Origin: Antedon mediterranea
Lineage: Eukaryota; Echinodermata; Crinoidea; Comatulida; Antedonidae
Direction of reading: 5' to 3'
DNA length: 64,000 nt
Assembly (NCBI RefSeq): GCF_964355755.1
Contig: NC_092672.1
Location: forward strand, 62,001-126,000
Below are positions 6,963-62,704 of this stretch, in pieces (the first letter of the stretch is position 1; the number at the start of each line of letters is the position of its first letter). The position numbers and the translations under genes were made by a program. The notes below the pieces were generated by a model that was given only the letters and a program-made list of their open reading frames with translations, did no database searches and was not told the DNA's origin.

Positions 6963-9900
6963 GAAACGATAAAGATGAGGAAATCTGTGAGAATGAGAAA
7001 AAGTCGCCCCAACCGAGACTCGAACTCGGACCGCCTGCTTGATATGCAGATGTCCTAACCATTAGACCACTGGGGCTTTCATGGTATTGTTCGAACTCGA
7101 TTGGATAACGACTCTTTAACATTCTCGGCGTGGTACGGCGGAACAGCACTAGTCCTCAGTTGTACGCACGCGCAACAATCCCGCCTCGTGAATAAAAATA
7201 CTGAAAGATGAGGGCGTATCAACTGAGGACTAGTGCTGTTCCGCCGTACCACGCCGAGAATGTTAAAGAGTCGTTATCCAATCGAGTTCGAACAATACCA
7301 TGAAAGCCCCAGTGGTCTAATGGTTAGGACATCTGCATATCAAGCAGGCGGTCCGAGTTCGAGTCTCGGTTGGGGCGACTTTTTCTCATTCTCACAGATT
7401 TCCTCATCTTTATCGTTTCAAATTAATTAATTAAATTTCAGTATATCACCGGGCGGTTTAGAATTAATGTTCTTTGCCTCTTGTGTTTATATATATATAT
7501 ATATATATATATAAACACAACAGGCATAGAAATAAATTCCAATTACCACCCGGTGATACACTGAAAATTATTTAATTAATTTTTGAAACGATATATATAT
7601 ATATATATATATCATTATTTACTATGACGTTATCCAAATTCCTTCACTTTCACTGATAAAGGGCTAGTGTTGCCCGAAAGCTCTCCTTATTTTTCTGGAT
7701 GTTTTACTTTATCATTTTGATTTAGCTTTTCGCTTTTTTTTTTTAATTCAACAACAACATTTATTTAGAAACCAGTTCATAAAATAAAAACAGCATAGAT
7801 TAAAAAACAATAACTTAAGATGGTAACATTAAAAAGAACGGTTTCAGGGATCAGAAAAAGAAGTTAAAAAACTTGTCAAAAACCAACCCCTAACACAAAC
7901 AACAAAAGAGCAAACTGCAAGACAAATCATTTTTGTATCTCCATTGAGATCCAGCCTACCAACAGCATTGTCATTTTTTTTAGTAATTTGCCTTTGGATA
8001 TATATCATTATTTATATTCTTATAATTTTTTACAATAATAAATAATAAAGCAATATTTTGTCGTTCACTTTCCTACTTTAATATTACAAATAGTAAAAAA
8101 CCAAGATCGTGGCAATTGTGGACAAAACTGAGTTACAACATATTGAGAATAACCAAATTGTTGAACAGCTCTATCAGCACTCCATGGAAGCTCCAATGTA
8201 ATAACTATGCCATCCACTTTTATATTACAAATACTGATAATTGTGACAAAACTGAGTTACAACATATTGAGAATAACCAAATTGTTGAACAGCTCTATCA
8301 GCACTCCATGGAAGCTCCAATGTAATAACTATGCCATCCACTTTAATATTACAAATACTGATAATTGTGACAAAACTGAGTTACAACATATTGAGAATAA
8401 CCAAATTGTTGAACAGCTCTATCAGCACTCCATGGAAGCTCCAATGTAATAACTATGCCATCCACTTTAATATTACAAATACTGACAATTGTGGACAAAA
8501 ATGAGTTACAACATATTTAGACTAACCAAATTGTTGAACAGCTCTATCAGCACTCCATGGAAGCTCCAATGTAATATGTACTCTTCGTCGTTGATTCTTT
8601 ACCCTTCTGTCTGCTTGAAGTGAGATACCAGAGCTTGCTGCCTCAGAAATTACAGCAACAAACTAAAGAAAAGAGAAAGAAATGTCTGTTTTTATCAAAC
8701 TCTATTAAACATACAAGGACTGCACAACGAAAAACATTACAAAACAAAATTGTCCAAATATTGATGAGAAAAATTAATTACATACCATATTGTTCTTAAT
8801 AAACGCCCCCTTCATTTTTTTTTTCATTATCTAATTAACACACCTTAGTGCCCAATCTATATAAACAGAGGATTCTCACATTTAGAATTGGTTTTCAGCC
8901 CGGAAAGTCACATTTTTTAGCGACTGTGATAACGATGTACGCTAACAGCGTGACAAAACATGTAGGCATACACCGGGCGCGTATGGTAATTCGCGCGTGT
9001 AGGACACTGGACGTTTTTTTTAAATTCGCGACAACATACATTGCTGGTCTTTAAAAACCAGGAAAACAACGGGGATCAGACAATCGCATGTTTATTCACA
9101 CAACACGGAATCGATACAAGGTGTCTGGTTTTATGAATCCCTTTCGTTAGAATTTTTCATCAAGTTGAGGGCGGATTTCAATAAACGCAACGCCTACGAT
9201 AAACACGCTGTTTCTGTTGTGAAGGATAACGAAGAACGCTGCATCGTTGGCCATTTGTCATAAGAGCAATCCAAGATTTTTAATCTTTTTTTTTTAAAGA
9301 TAAAGGCGAAGTAAAAGTATAAATTACAGCTAAACGCAGGCACAGTAGCATAGCAGGGAGTTTGGAGGTACCCTGTGAACTTATTTGTTGCACACCCTAA
9401 AAAACATTGATTGACCGTCTGAAGCAACTTGTTTAGGGTAGCCTAGGCAGGCCTCATATAGGCCTTGGCTCTATTTATGATTTTTACATTTCACCCCTAA
9501 CAAACGCTCCCCTTTTAAAAAAATGCAACGCCCCGAGGGCGTTTATTAGGAACAATACGGTAGTCATATACCTTCAAAACAACAGTATAATATTTTCTCC
9601 ATGTAGATAAGAAATTGTAGAAAACATATTTATTATTAATAATATTAAAATGTACCTTCTTTGCATCCATAAATCGTTTCTTTTCTGTTAAGTTGAGAAT
9701 TTCTAAAGGAATGTCAGACTCACTACGTGCTTCATATTGAACATTCCCATCTTCTTTGCTAACTACACGTCCTTTACGACCTGTCATCTAGAAAACAATC
9801 CAATACCTCTTTTTGAGTAACATTACTTGCCACAAAGTTTTTTAAAAGTATTACAGTAATACAATAAACAATAATATCAAGTTGACAACCATACCTCTGC

Positions 9901-12900
9901 AACATTTTCTGGACCACCAAGACTATCAATAAGCTCATCAAGAGTGTTGGGTGGTAGTTCAGTTGACATCTCTTCAAGTTCATCTAAAAGTTCTTGTTTC
10001 ATTAACTGAGCTTTTTCTATTGCATCCATGCCTGGCAAGAAAGGTGATGACGATGATGTTGAAAGTAGAGGGGCTAATGAAAAAAGAAACAAATTATACA
10101 ATCATTTTAGATACTGTGTAAAAAATAAGGTACCATTATTGTAAACACTATGACACTTAACCATAGAGGTACTATTGTAAACACTATGACACTTACCAAT
10201 AGAGGTACTATTGTAAACACTATGACACTTACCAATAGAGGTACTATTGCAAACACTATGACACTTAACCATAGAGGTACTATTGTAAACACTATGACAC
10301 TTACCAATAGAGGTACTATTATAAACACTATGACACTTACCAATAGAGGTACTATTGTAAACACTATGACACTTACCAATAGAGGTACTATTGTAAACAC
10401 TATGACTTAACCACTTACCAATAGAGGTATTATTGTAAACACTATGACACTTACCAATAGAGGTACTATTGTAAACACTATGACACTTACCAATAGAGGT
10501 ACTATTGTAAACACTATGACACCAATAGAGGTACTATTGTAAACACTATGACACTTACCAATAGAGGTACTATTGTAAACACTATGACACCAATAGAGGT
10601 ACTATTGTAAACACTATGACACTTACCAATAGAGGTACTATTGTAAACACAATGACACTTACCAATAGAGGTACTATTGTAAACACTATGACACTTACCA
10701 ATAGAGGTACTATTGTAAACACTATGACACTTACCAATAGAGGTACTATTGTAAACACTATGACACTTACCAATAGAGGTATTATTGTAAACACTATGAC
10801 ACCAATAGAGGTACTATTGTAAACACTATGACACTTACCAATAGAGGTACTATTGTAAACACTATGACACTTACCAATAGAGGTACTATTGTAAACACTA
10901 TGACACTTACCAATAGAGGTACTATTGTAAACACTATGACACTTACCAATAGAGGTATTATTGTAAACACTATGACACCAATAGAGGTACTATTGTAAAC
11001 ACTATGACACTTACCAATAGAGGTACTATTGTAAACACTATGACACTTACCAATAGAGGTACTATTGTAAACACTATGACACTTACCAATAGAGGTACTA
11101 TTGTAAACACTATGACACTTACCAATAGAGGTACTATTGTAAACACTATGACACCAATAGAGGTACTATTGTAAACACTATGACACTTACCAATAGAGGT
11201 ACTATTGTAAACACTATGACACTTACCAATAGAGGTACTATTGTAAACACTATGACACTTACCAATAGAGGTACTATTGTAATCACTATGACACTTACCA
11301 ATAGAGGTACTATTGTAAACACTATGACACTTACCAATAGAGGTACTATTGTAAACACTATGACACTTAACCATAGAGGTACTATTGTAAACACTATGAC
11401 ACTTACCAATAGAGGTACTATTGTAAACACTATGACTTAACCACTTACCAATAGAGGTATTATTGTAAACACTATGACACTTACCAATAGAGGTACTATT
11501 GTAAACACTATGACACTTACCAATAGAGGTACTATTGTAAACACAATGACACTTACCAATAGAGGTACTATTGTAAACACAATGACACCAATAGAGGTAC
11601 TATTGTAAACACTATGACACTTACCAATAGAGGTACTATTGTAAACACTATGACACTTACCAATAGAGGTACTATTGTAAACACTATGACACTTACCAAT
11701 AGAGGTACTATTGTAAACACTATGACACTTACCAATAGAGGTACTATTGTAAACACTATGACACTTACCAATAGAGGTACTATTGTAAACACTATGACAC
11801 TTACCAATAGAGGTACTATTGTAAACACAATGACACTTACCAATAGAGGTACTATTGTAAACACTATGACACCAATAGAGGTACTATTGTAAACACTATG
11901 ACACTTACCAATAGAGGTACTATTGTAAACACTATGACACTTACCAATAGAGGTACTATTGTAAACACTATGACACCAATAGAGGTACTATTGTAAACAC
12001 TATGACACTTACCAATAGAGGTACTATTGTAAACACTATGACACTTACCAATAGAGGTACTATTGTAAACACTATGACACTTACCAATAGAGGTACTATT
12101 GTAAACACTATGACACTTAACCATAGAGGTACTATTGTAAACACTATGACACTTACCAATAGAGGTACTATTGTAAACACTATGACTTAACCACTTACCA
12201 ATAGAGGTATTATTGTAAACACTATGACACTTACCAATAGAGGTACTATTGTAAACACTATGACACTTACCAATAGAGGTACTATTGTAAACACAATGAC
12301 ACTTACCAATAGAGGTACTATTGTAAACACTATGACACTTACCAATAGAGGTACTATTGTAAACACTATGACACTTACCAATAGAGGTACTATTATAAAC
12401 ACTATGACACTTACCAATAGAGGTACTATTGTAAACACTATGACACTTACCAATAGAGGTACTATTGTAAACACAATGACACTTACCAATAGAGGTACTA
12501 TTGTAAACACTATGACACTTACCAATAGAGGTACTATTGTAAACACTATGACACTTACCAATAGAGGTACTATTGTAAACACAATGACACTTACCAATAG
12601 AGGTACTATTGTAAACACTATGACACTTACCAATAGAGGTACTATTGTAAACACTATGACACTTACCAATAGAGGTACTATTGTAAACACTATGACACCA
12701 ATAGAGGTACTATTGTAAACACAATGACACTTACCAATAGAGGTACTATTGTAAACACTATGACACTTACCAATAGAGGTACTATTGTAAACACTATGAC
12801 ACTTACCAATAGAGGTACTATTGTAAACACTATGACACTTACCAATAGAGGTACTATTGTAAACACTATGACACTTACCAATAGAGGTACTATTGTAAAC

Positions 12901-15900
12901 ACTATGACACTTACCAATAGAGGTATTATTGTAAACACTATGACACCAATAGAGGTACTATTGTAAACACTATGACACTTACCAATAGAGGTACTATTGT
13001 AAACACTATGACACTTACCAATAGAGGTACTATTGTAAACACTATGACACTTACCAATAGAGGTACTATTGTAAACACTATGACACTTACCAATAGAGGT
13101 ACTATTGTAAACACTATGACACTTACCAATAGAGGTACTATTGTAAACACTATGACACTTACCAATAGAGGTACTATTGTAAACACTATGACACCAATAG
13201 AGGTACTATTGTAAACACTATGACACTTACCAATAGAGGTACTATTGTAAACACTATGACACTTACCAATAGAGGTACTATTGTAAACACTATGACACTT
13301 ACCAATAGAGGTACTATTGTAAACACTATGACACTTACCAATAGAGGTACTATTGTAAACACTATGACACTTACCAATAGAGGTACTATTGTAAACACTA
13401 TGACACTTAACCATAGAGGTACTATTGTAAACACTATGACACTTACCAATAGAGGTACTATTGTAAACACTATGACTTAACCACTTACCAATAGAGGTAT
13501 TATTGTAAACACTATGACACTTACCAATAGAGGTACTATTGTAAACACTATGACACTTACCAATAGAGGTACTATTGTAAACACAATGACACTTACCAAT
13601 AGAGGTACTATTGTAAACACAATGACACCAATAGAGGTACTATTGTAAACACTATGACACTTACCAATAGAGGTACTATTGTAAACACTATGACACTTAC
13701 CAATAGAGGTACTATTGTAAACACTATGACACTTACCAATAGAGGTACTATTGTAAACACTATGACACTTACCAATAGAGGTACTATTGTAAACACTATG
13801 ACACTTACCAATAGAGGTACTATTGTAAACACTATGACACTTACCAATAGAGGTACTATTGTAAACACAATGACACTTACCAATAGAGGTACTATTGTAA
13901 ACACTATGACACCAATAGAGGTACTATTGTAAACACTATGACACTTACCAATAGAGGTACTATTGTAAACACTATGACACTTACCAATAGAGGTACTATT
14001 GTAAACACTATGACACCAATAGAGGTACTATTGTAAACACTATGACACTTACCAATAGAGGTACTATTGTAAACACTATGACACTTACCAATAGAGGTAC
14101 TATTGTAAACACTATGACACTTACCAATAGAGGTACTATTGTAAACACTATGACACTTAACCATAGAGGTACTATTGTAAACACTATGACACTTACCAAT
14201 AGAGGTACTATTGTAAACACTATGACTTAACCACTTACCAATAGAGGTATTATTGTAAACACTATGACACTTACCAATAGAGGTACTATTGTAAACACTA
14301 TGACACTTACCAATAGAGGTACTATTGTAAACACAATGACACTTACCAATAGAGGTACTATTGTAAACACTATGACACTTACCAATAGAGGTACTATTGT
14401 AAACACTATGACACTTACCAATAGAGGTACTATTATAAACACTATGACACTTACCAATAGAGGTACTATTGTAAACACTATGACACTTACCAATAGAGGT
14501 ACTATTGTAAACACAATGACACTTACCAATAGAGGTACTATTGTAAACACTATGACACTTACCAATAGAGGTACTATTGTAAACACTATGACACTTACCA
14601 ATAGAGGTACTATTGTAAACACTATGACACTTACCAATAGAGGTACTATTGTAAACACTATGACACTTACCAATAGAGGTACTATTGTAAACACTATGAC
14701 ACTTACCAATAGAGGTACTATTGTAAACACTATGACACTTACCAATAGAGGTACTATTGTAAACACTATGACACTTACCAATAGAGGTACTATTGTAAAC
14801 ACTATGACACTTACCAATAGAGGTACTATTGTAAACACTATGACACTTACCAATAGAGGTACTATTGTAAACACTATGACACTTACCAATAGAGGTACTA
14901 TTGTAAACACTATGACACTTACCAATAGAGGTACTATTGTAAACACTATGACACTTACCAATAGAGGTACTATTGTAAACACTATGACACTTACCAATAG
15001 AGGTACTATTGTAAACACTATGACACTTACCAATAGAGGTACTATTGTAAACACTATGACACTTACCAATAGAGGTACTATTGTAAACACTATGACACTT
15101 ACCAATAGAGGTACTTTTTGTGGAAGGTTGAGAAGTCATTTTTGAATTCACTGTTGTATTTGTCTTTTGTATAAGCCCAGCTGCTAGTAGGACATTGTTC
15201 ACTTCTTCACCGTTTTTCTTTGGTTTCTTGTTTTTTTTCTTTCGTTCTTTACGATGTAACCAAGGATCTAAAAAATGTAAAAGATGAAGAAGTCATTGCT
15301 GACGACAAATATGAAAAAAAAAATGCTTATGCCTATAAATGATGATAAATAAACTTGTATTCTTACCAGCATCGCCAAACGAATCACTTTGGAATGGATT
15401 GAAGTCATCTTCATCATTCGATGATAGCTCTGAATTACCAGTATCAGATTCCTCATCACTCAACCTTTTCATTTTCTCATTGTCACTAACATCAAAATTA
15501 CTATCAATGTCACTATCATCATCAAAAAATGTTTTTCCTCGTTTATTATTTGATTTTTGATCACTAACACGTTTTCGTTTACGACTTGTTTTTTCTTTCA
15601 TGTAACTATCAGGCGTGTTGCTTCGACTGTCGTCAAAGTCCCAGCCAAATAATCCACCTAATGTTTTCCGCCTGTTTGGTGCAGGAAAATGTTTTTCAAC
15701 TAATGTACTAAAAACACCCCTGGAAATAAAAAATTCTATCTTTTATTGCAATGTACATGAAACAAAGTTAAAGCTACTACAACTGGTATGGGGGTGGGGG
15801 TGACCCAAATACTACGGCCCTGAAGTTAAAGCTACTACAACTGGTATGGGGGTGGGGGTGACCCAAATACTTAGTGTGCGAACCCCCCCTTGACAGATCC

Positions 15901-41995: not shown

Positions 41996-62704
<20,709 letters not shown>

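Follow-up and report, generated by a model that had tools for sequence, protein, structure and literature searches.

What does splicing make of an exon whose end, together with the donor that follows it, recurs more than a hundred times in the adjoining intron? The question is raised by a homologue of the strawberry-notch gene (SBNO) in the crinoid Antedon mediterranea, encoded on the minus strand of a 64,000-nucleotide (nt) stretch, bases 62,001-126,000 of contig C3 (NC_092672.1) of an assembly of 354 Mb in 18 contigs. This whole stretch is termed the window below, and positions refer to it unless a contig is named. It matches the Pfam families AAA_34 and Helicase_C_4, as do the translations of the exons. 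Exon numbers, such as exon 15, are those of an earlier annotation made from the letters alone (the sequence-only reading) and are used as labels only. Our analysis points with good confidence to a minisatellite that grew by mutation across the end of exon 15 and is tolerated by splicing, i.e. a "mirage" as described in lancelets, with the first donor being the one that is used. The features on which the argument turns are the following:

15103-15267, minus strand: SBNO exon 15, 165 nt, from the sequence and its open frame; the last 13 nt (15103-15115) form the first repeat copy
15097-15102, minus strand: exon-proximal donor 1 (GTAAGT), the putative working donor, from the sequence, its predicted U1 pairing and comparison with other loci
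10137-15115, minus strand: 36-bp minisatellite of about 139 copies, from Tandem Repeats Finder (TRF), a census of units, donor and phase counts and block structure
13986-15103, minus strand: stretch with donors 1-29, each in the phase of exon 15; passing over a unit would lengthen the product by 12 (or 14) residues
10074-10136, minus strand: the part of the intron outside the repeat, which holds a pyrimidine tract and the acceptor TTTCTTTTTTCATTAG, from the sequence
9895-10073, minus strand: SBNO exon 16 (...GGPENVAE), from the sequence, its translation and a domain match

Exon 15 ends in ...AAAAGTACCTCTATTG, with 15103 as its last base, and is directly followed by GTAAGT, while the acceptor of exon 16, TTCATTAG/CCCCTCTAC (the slash marking the splice junction here and below), lies directly before 10073. 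The intron between them measures 5,029 nt and consists almost entirely of the minisatellite, for which TRF gives a period of 36, 139.0 copies and 95% matches. Its unit combines 13 nt of exon end (AGTACCTCTATTG) with 23 nt of intron start (GTAAGTGTCATAGTGTTTACAAT), and the edge of the array, at 15115, lies inside the exon that ends at 15103, this junction being read from the sequence. Anchoring on the motif ACCTCTA (139 occurrences) divides the array into 138 unit intervals, which are 36 bp long in 119 cases, 32 bp in 14 and 42 bp in five. The repeats carry splice signals on a large scale: intact TTG/GTAAGT donors (TTGGTAAGT) number 119 in the array, with a single further occurrence on the same strand of the window and none on the opposite strand. 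The donor has been lost in 19 of the 138 units, many of which are copies of one another and not separate events, and in the 32-bp units it is reduced to GGTGTC. An exact 37-mer has 88 matches in the 354-Mb assembly (runs of N excepted); because all of them sit at this locus, the array is far beyond chance and has grown locally. The sequence-only reading, which described about 140 copies of a 36-bp unit containing the exon-15 junction and grown from it, is thus borne out in its anatomical part, the unit starting at the exon end.

At the other end, an unrepeated stretch of about 62 nt adjoins exon 16. The last intact donor lies 123 nt from that exon and the final degenerate copy, by reading, about 87 nt from it. 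Each unit had also been credited with an acceptor-like end: the motif in question, TTTACAATAG, by reading lacks a clear pyrimidine tract. On the donor side, predicted pairing with U1 amounts to -11.0 kcal/mol for donor 1 and is identical for donor 2. Normal splicing would proceed from donor 1 to exon 16, since this donor and the acceptor upstream of it bound an exon of ordinary size (165 nt) and no other donor of the array is transcribed earlier; the array would then leave as intron together with the other 118 intact donors. Under this proposal the array would persist since duplications on the donor side are nearly neutral, and not through selection for a function.

The reading frame is the first place where this proposal meets competition. 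Read on from exon 15, the array shows no stop in that frame before 13906 and translates into 12-residue blocks. Donors 1-29 share the phase of the true donor, the first out-of-phase donor being that at 13985, where the shift is due to 32-bp units; over all 119 donors the three phases divide as 72/32/15. The earlier claim of one common phase for all donors thus applies to an unbroken run of 29, the exon-side quarter of the array, and fails for the array as a whole; its arithmetic of added in-frame blocks is valid within that run. It had further been proposed that the array might encode a length-variable segment of the protein. In the form considered here, donors 2-29 would be used at useful rates, and the linker that joins the two helicase halves of SBNO would grow by 12-residue blocks. 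We regard this as improbable, even though it is favoured by the phase of the first 29 donors, by the frame open to 13906 and by the position of the joint of exons 15 and 16: when exons 15-17 are joined in frame, Helicase_C_4 (Strawberry notch) matches at residues 98-159, and with the match starting at residue 98 of 159 the joint falls outside the Pfam domain. A search of the PDB with the same three exons gave no match. The 14 frame-shifting 32-bp units and the 19 lost donors among 138 units speak against such a segment. A graded form of the idea, in which early donors are used with falling probability and isoforms would form a ladder in 12-residue steps over donors 2-29 (up to 28 in-frame alternatives), appears unlikely too, if somewhat less so.

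The length-variable reading has a precedent in human IFI6 (6-16, G1P3), where a minisatellite supplies several splice donors and two downstream repeats are reported to be used (PMC4526556). The likeness lies in a repeat that offers several donors; the difference is that use of downstream donors has been reported for IFI6 and would be hypothetical at SBNO, and the two genes are unrelated. Their repeat units differ as well. The original description of the IFI6 minisatellite is reportedly that of Turri et al. 1995 (NAR 23:1854). Downstream donors that are in frame and open, as in IFI6, are found at SBNO for the first 29 and not for the later ones.

Comparison with other arrays of the same kind bears on these alternatives more directly. 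From 55 TRF rows we examined 21 arrays in the window, after merging overlaps and omitting about ten places with a period of 18 or less. Besides that at exon 15, three of the 21 begin at a sense-strand donor:

8114-8576, minus strand: array of a 124-bp unit, 3.7 copies, at SBNO exon 18, which ends at 8527; from TRF, sequence, donors and domain
51885-52065, minus strand: array of a 44-bp unit at a PH-domain exon of an ACAP-like gene, with four identical GTGAGT donors; from TRF, sequence and Pfam PH
47079-47708, minus strand: array of mostly 75/81-bp units at an ankyrin exon, likewise ACAP-like, with eight GTATGA donors; from TRF, sequence and Pfam Ank

At SBNO exon 18 the exon end is present four times at a spacing of 125/124 bp; the true donor reads GTTAGT and the three intronic copies GTTATT. 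The units of the ankyrin-exon array contain telomere-like TTAGGG/CCCTAA filler. The Pfam matches to PH, ArfGap and Ank all fall on one strand and suggest an ACAP-like gene. Inspection of open frames by eye revealed no array at the acceptor side of a junction among the 21. The tally for the window is accordingly four junction arrays at donors against none at acceptors (n = 21 examined), and copies of an acceptor placed upstream are possibly harmful in a way that donor copies placed downstream are not.

Outside the window, 13 donor-like arrays were fetched by pattern, taken from among the first 100 matches listed for each of three patterns. Within this sample three start at an exon end, one of them probably so (positions are those of the contigs, followed by those in the fetched locus):

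C1:17776227-17777072 (L014 2327-3172): DHX8 donor array of 37-bp units, from a PDB match and the sequence
C1:18595969-18596471 (L015 2469-2971): EIF3L donor array of 29- and 55-bp units, from PDB and Paf67 matches
C3:18139966-18140356 (L026 266-656): array of a 17-bp unit, 23 copies, starting where a probable coiled-coil exon meets its donor

The DHX8 exon joined to the next exon finds DHX8 as its best PDB match (E = 1.6e-46), and its array holds 21 GGTAAGT sites, 14 of them as CACCAG/GTAA. The second exon matches eIF3 subunit L in the PDB (E = 7.4e-5) and Paf67 in Pfam; the longer units of its array reproduce the exon end, CCTTAACTTG, exactly and also bear an acceptor-like CTCTTCAG. The third exon has no Pfam match, and among PDB entries Rab GTPase-binding effector protein 1 scores best, with only E = 0.38; L026 is probably a further junction-spanning array. 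In the other ten of these 13 listed matches no exon end was seen by eye: one (L013) starts about 50 nt inside an intron, and another (L019) is antisense to an exon-like stretch.

What would happen at these seven loci if the second donor were chosen? Only at SBNO exon 15 is the resulting insert both open and in frame. SBNO exon 18, the PH and ankyrin exons and DHX8 would each gain a stop with it (in DHX8 an in-frame TAA), and at L026 it would shift the frame by 17 nt. For EIF3L, the nearest further GTAAGT is 29 nt away and by reading shifts the frame; the exon end itself recurs exactly 142 nt away, and the insert up to that point holds a stop. Predicted U1 pairing is equal at the two donor copies compared in six of the seven loci, the exception being SBNO exon 18, where the copies are weaker (-2.6 vs -5.2 kcal/mol at the true donor). 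At DHX8, as at the PH exon, the final copy stands 86 nt from the next exon and could thus form an ordinary short intron, yet only the first donor would give the conserved protein. Because donor 2 would shift the frame, introduce a stop or do both at six of the seven loci, we infer that the choice of the exon-proximal donor would work reliably in this organism. Moreover, one in-frame locus in seven is about what chance would give, at a rough estimate of one in six for each locus, the product of about 1/3 (the chance that 3 divides the period) and about 1/2 (the chance that 12 codons are free of stops). Together these results count against the length-variable segment.

The same comparison leaves without support the other function that had been suggested for the array, a splice-site sink. 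Acting as a sink or brake, the U1-binding sites would slow splicing or cause retention and lower the output of SBNO, perhaps depending on array length. In favour of this stand the 119 intact donors in one transcript, at the predicted pairing given above, and the stop at 13906 that a retained intron would meet. U1 is, however, abundant, and DHX8, a conserved splicing helicase, itself has an array with 21 GGTAAGT sites. The published mirages, too, are said to leave splicing undisturbed (PMC3087553, PMC3902484). We hence consider a sink very improbable.

Several points nevertheless weigh against a tolerated array spliced from donor 1. Donors 1-29 are in phase and open, and nothing in the sequence forbids their use. 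In human IFI6 two downstream repeat units are reported to serve as donors (PMC4526556). Splicing from the last intact donor would remove an intron of 123 nt, near the size of the neighbouring introns, and intron definition might favour that choice. Finally, the decoys at exon 18 are weaker than the true donor, so that tolerance there may rest on decay, unlike at exon 15.

How, then, did an array of this size arise? The string of unit types contains a block of 35 units that recurs 2,040 bp away, and the first 16 units, counted from exon 15, are all of the consensus type; these features point to block duplication and to homogenisation in the recent past. For a mirage, turnover would be expected to homogenise the interior of the cluster and to leave out its boundaries. 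At SBNO the edge on the acceptor side is closed by a variant unit, and the exon-side edge, which has not diverged, is the most homogeneous part. The neighbouring introns are short, 107 nt (9788-9894) and, by reading, 99 nt (15268-15366), and an intron of about 90-120 nt grown about fifty-fold would fit the data. We propose that the array began with the duplication of a 36-bp piece across the exon-15 donor and was then enlarged by slippage plus unequal or block duplication, which would have taken the intron from about 90-120 nt to 5,029 nt. The sequence gives no sign that the donors are being kept, 19 of 138 having been lost. As 5 kb of near-identical 36-mers with a block repeat at 2,040 bp is hard to assemble, the copy number could also have been inflated or collapsed as an artefact; the variant units stand in ordered blocks, though, and like arrays occur elsewhere in the assembly, which makes this the most remote of the explanations weighed here, and the junction repeat itself would survive a wrong count.

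Two further candidates were tried and set aside. A hairpin that hides the donor, CTATT/GTAAG pairing with TTTAC/AATAG in each unit, found no backing, as folding of five versions of the unit gave z values of +0.03 to +1.03, no better than shuffled sequences. SBNO paralogues proved unusable as a record of the state before the array: exon 15 is unmatched in a tandem copy, and a copy on contig C5 matches parts of exons 16 and 17 only. The tandem SBNO-like paralogue lies just downstream of the gene (L009/L010, C3:42064-57017) and shows exon-14-like and exon-16-like matches; within it (C3:42-57 kb) no match to exon 15 was found.

Whether donor arrays form an enriched class was examined with patterns and their controls. 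A triple GGTAAGT pattern gives 1,301 matches (661+640) against 2,468 (1,830+638) for the reversed pattern, whereas TGGTAAGT gives 736 against 456 control matches and AGGTGAGT 291 against 83; GGTAAGT alone has 37,873 matches and its control 51,278. These figures count overlapping copies and not arrays, and with two of the three patterns above control and one below they settle nothing, so that enrichment is dropped as a claim. A tandem unit of 34 bp bearing AGGTGAGT also makes up a dispersed satellite family, present at at least five places over 1.6 Mb (C3:20094304-21652415). For the window, a chance model with 21 arrays whose units sum to 1,341 bp, set in unique DNA of about 46 kb with some 65 donors (an estimate, not a count), expects 1.9 donor-spanning seeds where four are seen, a difference that is not significant (P about 0.12). 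Nothing here shows an attraction of minisatellites to splice junctions.

The closest known counterparts are the mirages, minisatellites across exon-intron boundaries, of the lancelet genes for Adh3, the globins BflGb6 and BflGb9, TnC and PGBD5 (PMC3087553, PMC3902484). Like the SBNO array they are tandem copies of an exon-intron junction with its splice signal, located in lancelets at either the 5' or the 3' boundary. In one report they are described as elements that do "not interfere with regular splicing", as suggested by reverse transcription-PCR and the Adh3 data (PMC3087553), and in another as elements that do "not generate aberrant mRNAs" (PMC3902484). In scale they differ: about 139 copies over 5 kb at SBNO stand against six and three units in the two haplotypes of BflGb6 and unit sizes of 10-160 bp. 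The SBNO array is thus an extreme case of the mirage kind, larger than the printed counts compared, which are those of BflGb6. Over 20 fetched loci of the Antedon assembly the G+C content is 34.9%; that of Branchiostoma is higher.

Mirages have also been proposed as a source of new introns (PMC3087553, PMC3902484). Another counterpart is the Rogers model of intron gain through tandem genomic duplication of AG/GT sites (cited in PMC3087553), with potato RdRp as a reported case of intron gain via tandem duplication (PMC4974935). What SBNO shares with this model is the duplication of DNA bearing a splice signal inside a gene. The differences are that no new intron is seen, that a clear pyrimidine tract is missing from the acceptor-like TTTACAATAG and that the present intron ends in the unrepeated acceptor TTTCTTTTTTCATTAG; the SBNO intron seems to have existed beforehand and then to have been lengthened.

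The choice of the spliceosome among identical 5' splice sites, and the question whether recognition of a short intron spans the intron or the exon, are usually studied with artificial duplications. A literature search by terms for tandem 5' splice sites found no report on them. The Antedon genome holds several natural series of identical donors, with 119 at SBNO exon 15, 14 exact ones at DHX8 and four at the PH exon. If donor 1 is indeed the one used, exon-proximal choice would be strong even against many equal competitors, some at the distance of a short intron. If instead the ladder were real, SBNO would have a series of lengths made by splicing, and the locus would be a natural assay of donor choice with more than 100 near-identical donors in series. 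More generally, the findings suggest that minisatellite growth yields donor-side junction repeats as a by-product and that short introns can become long ones by way of such repeats.

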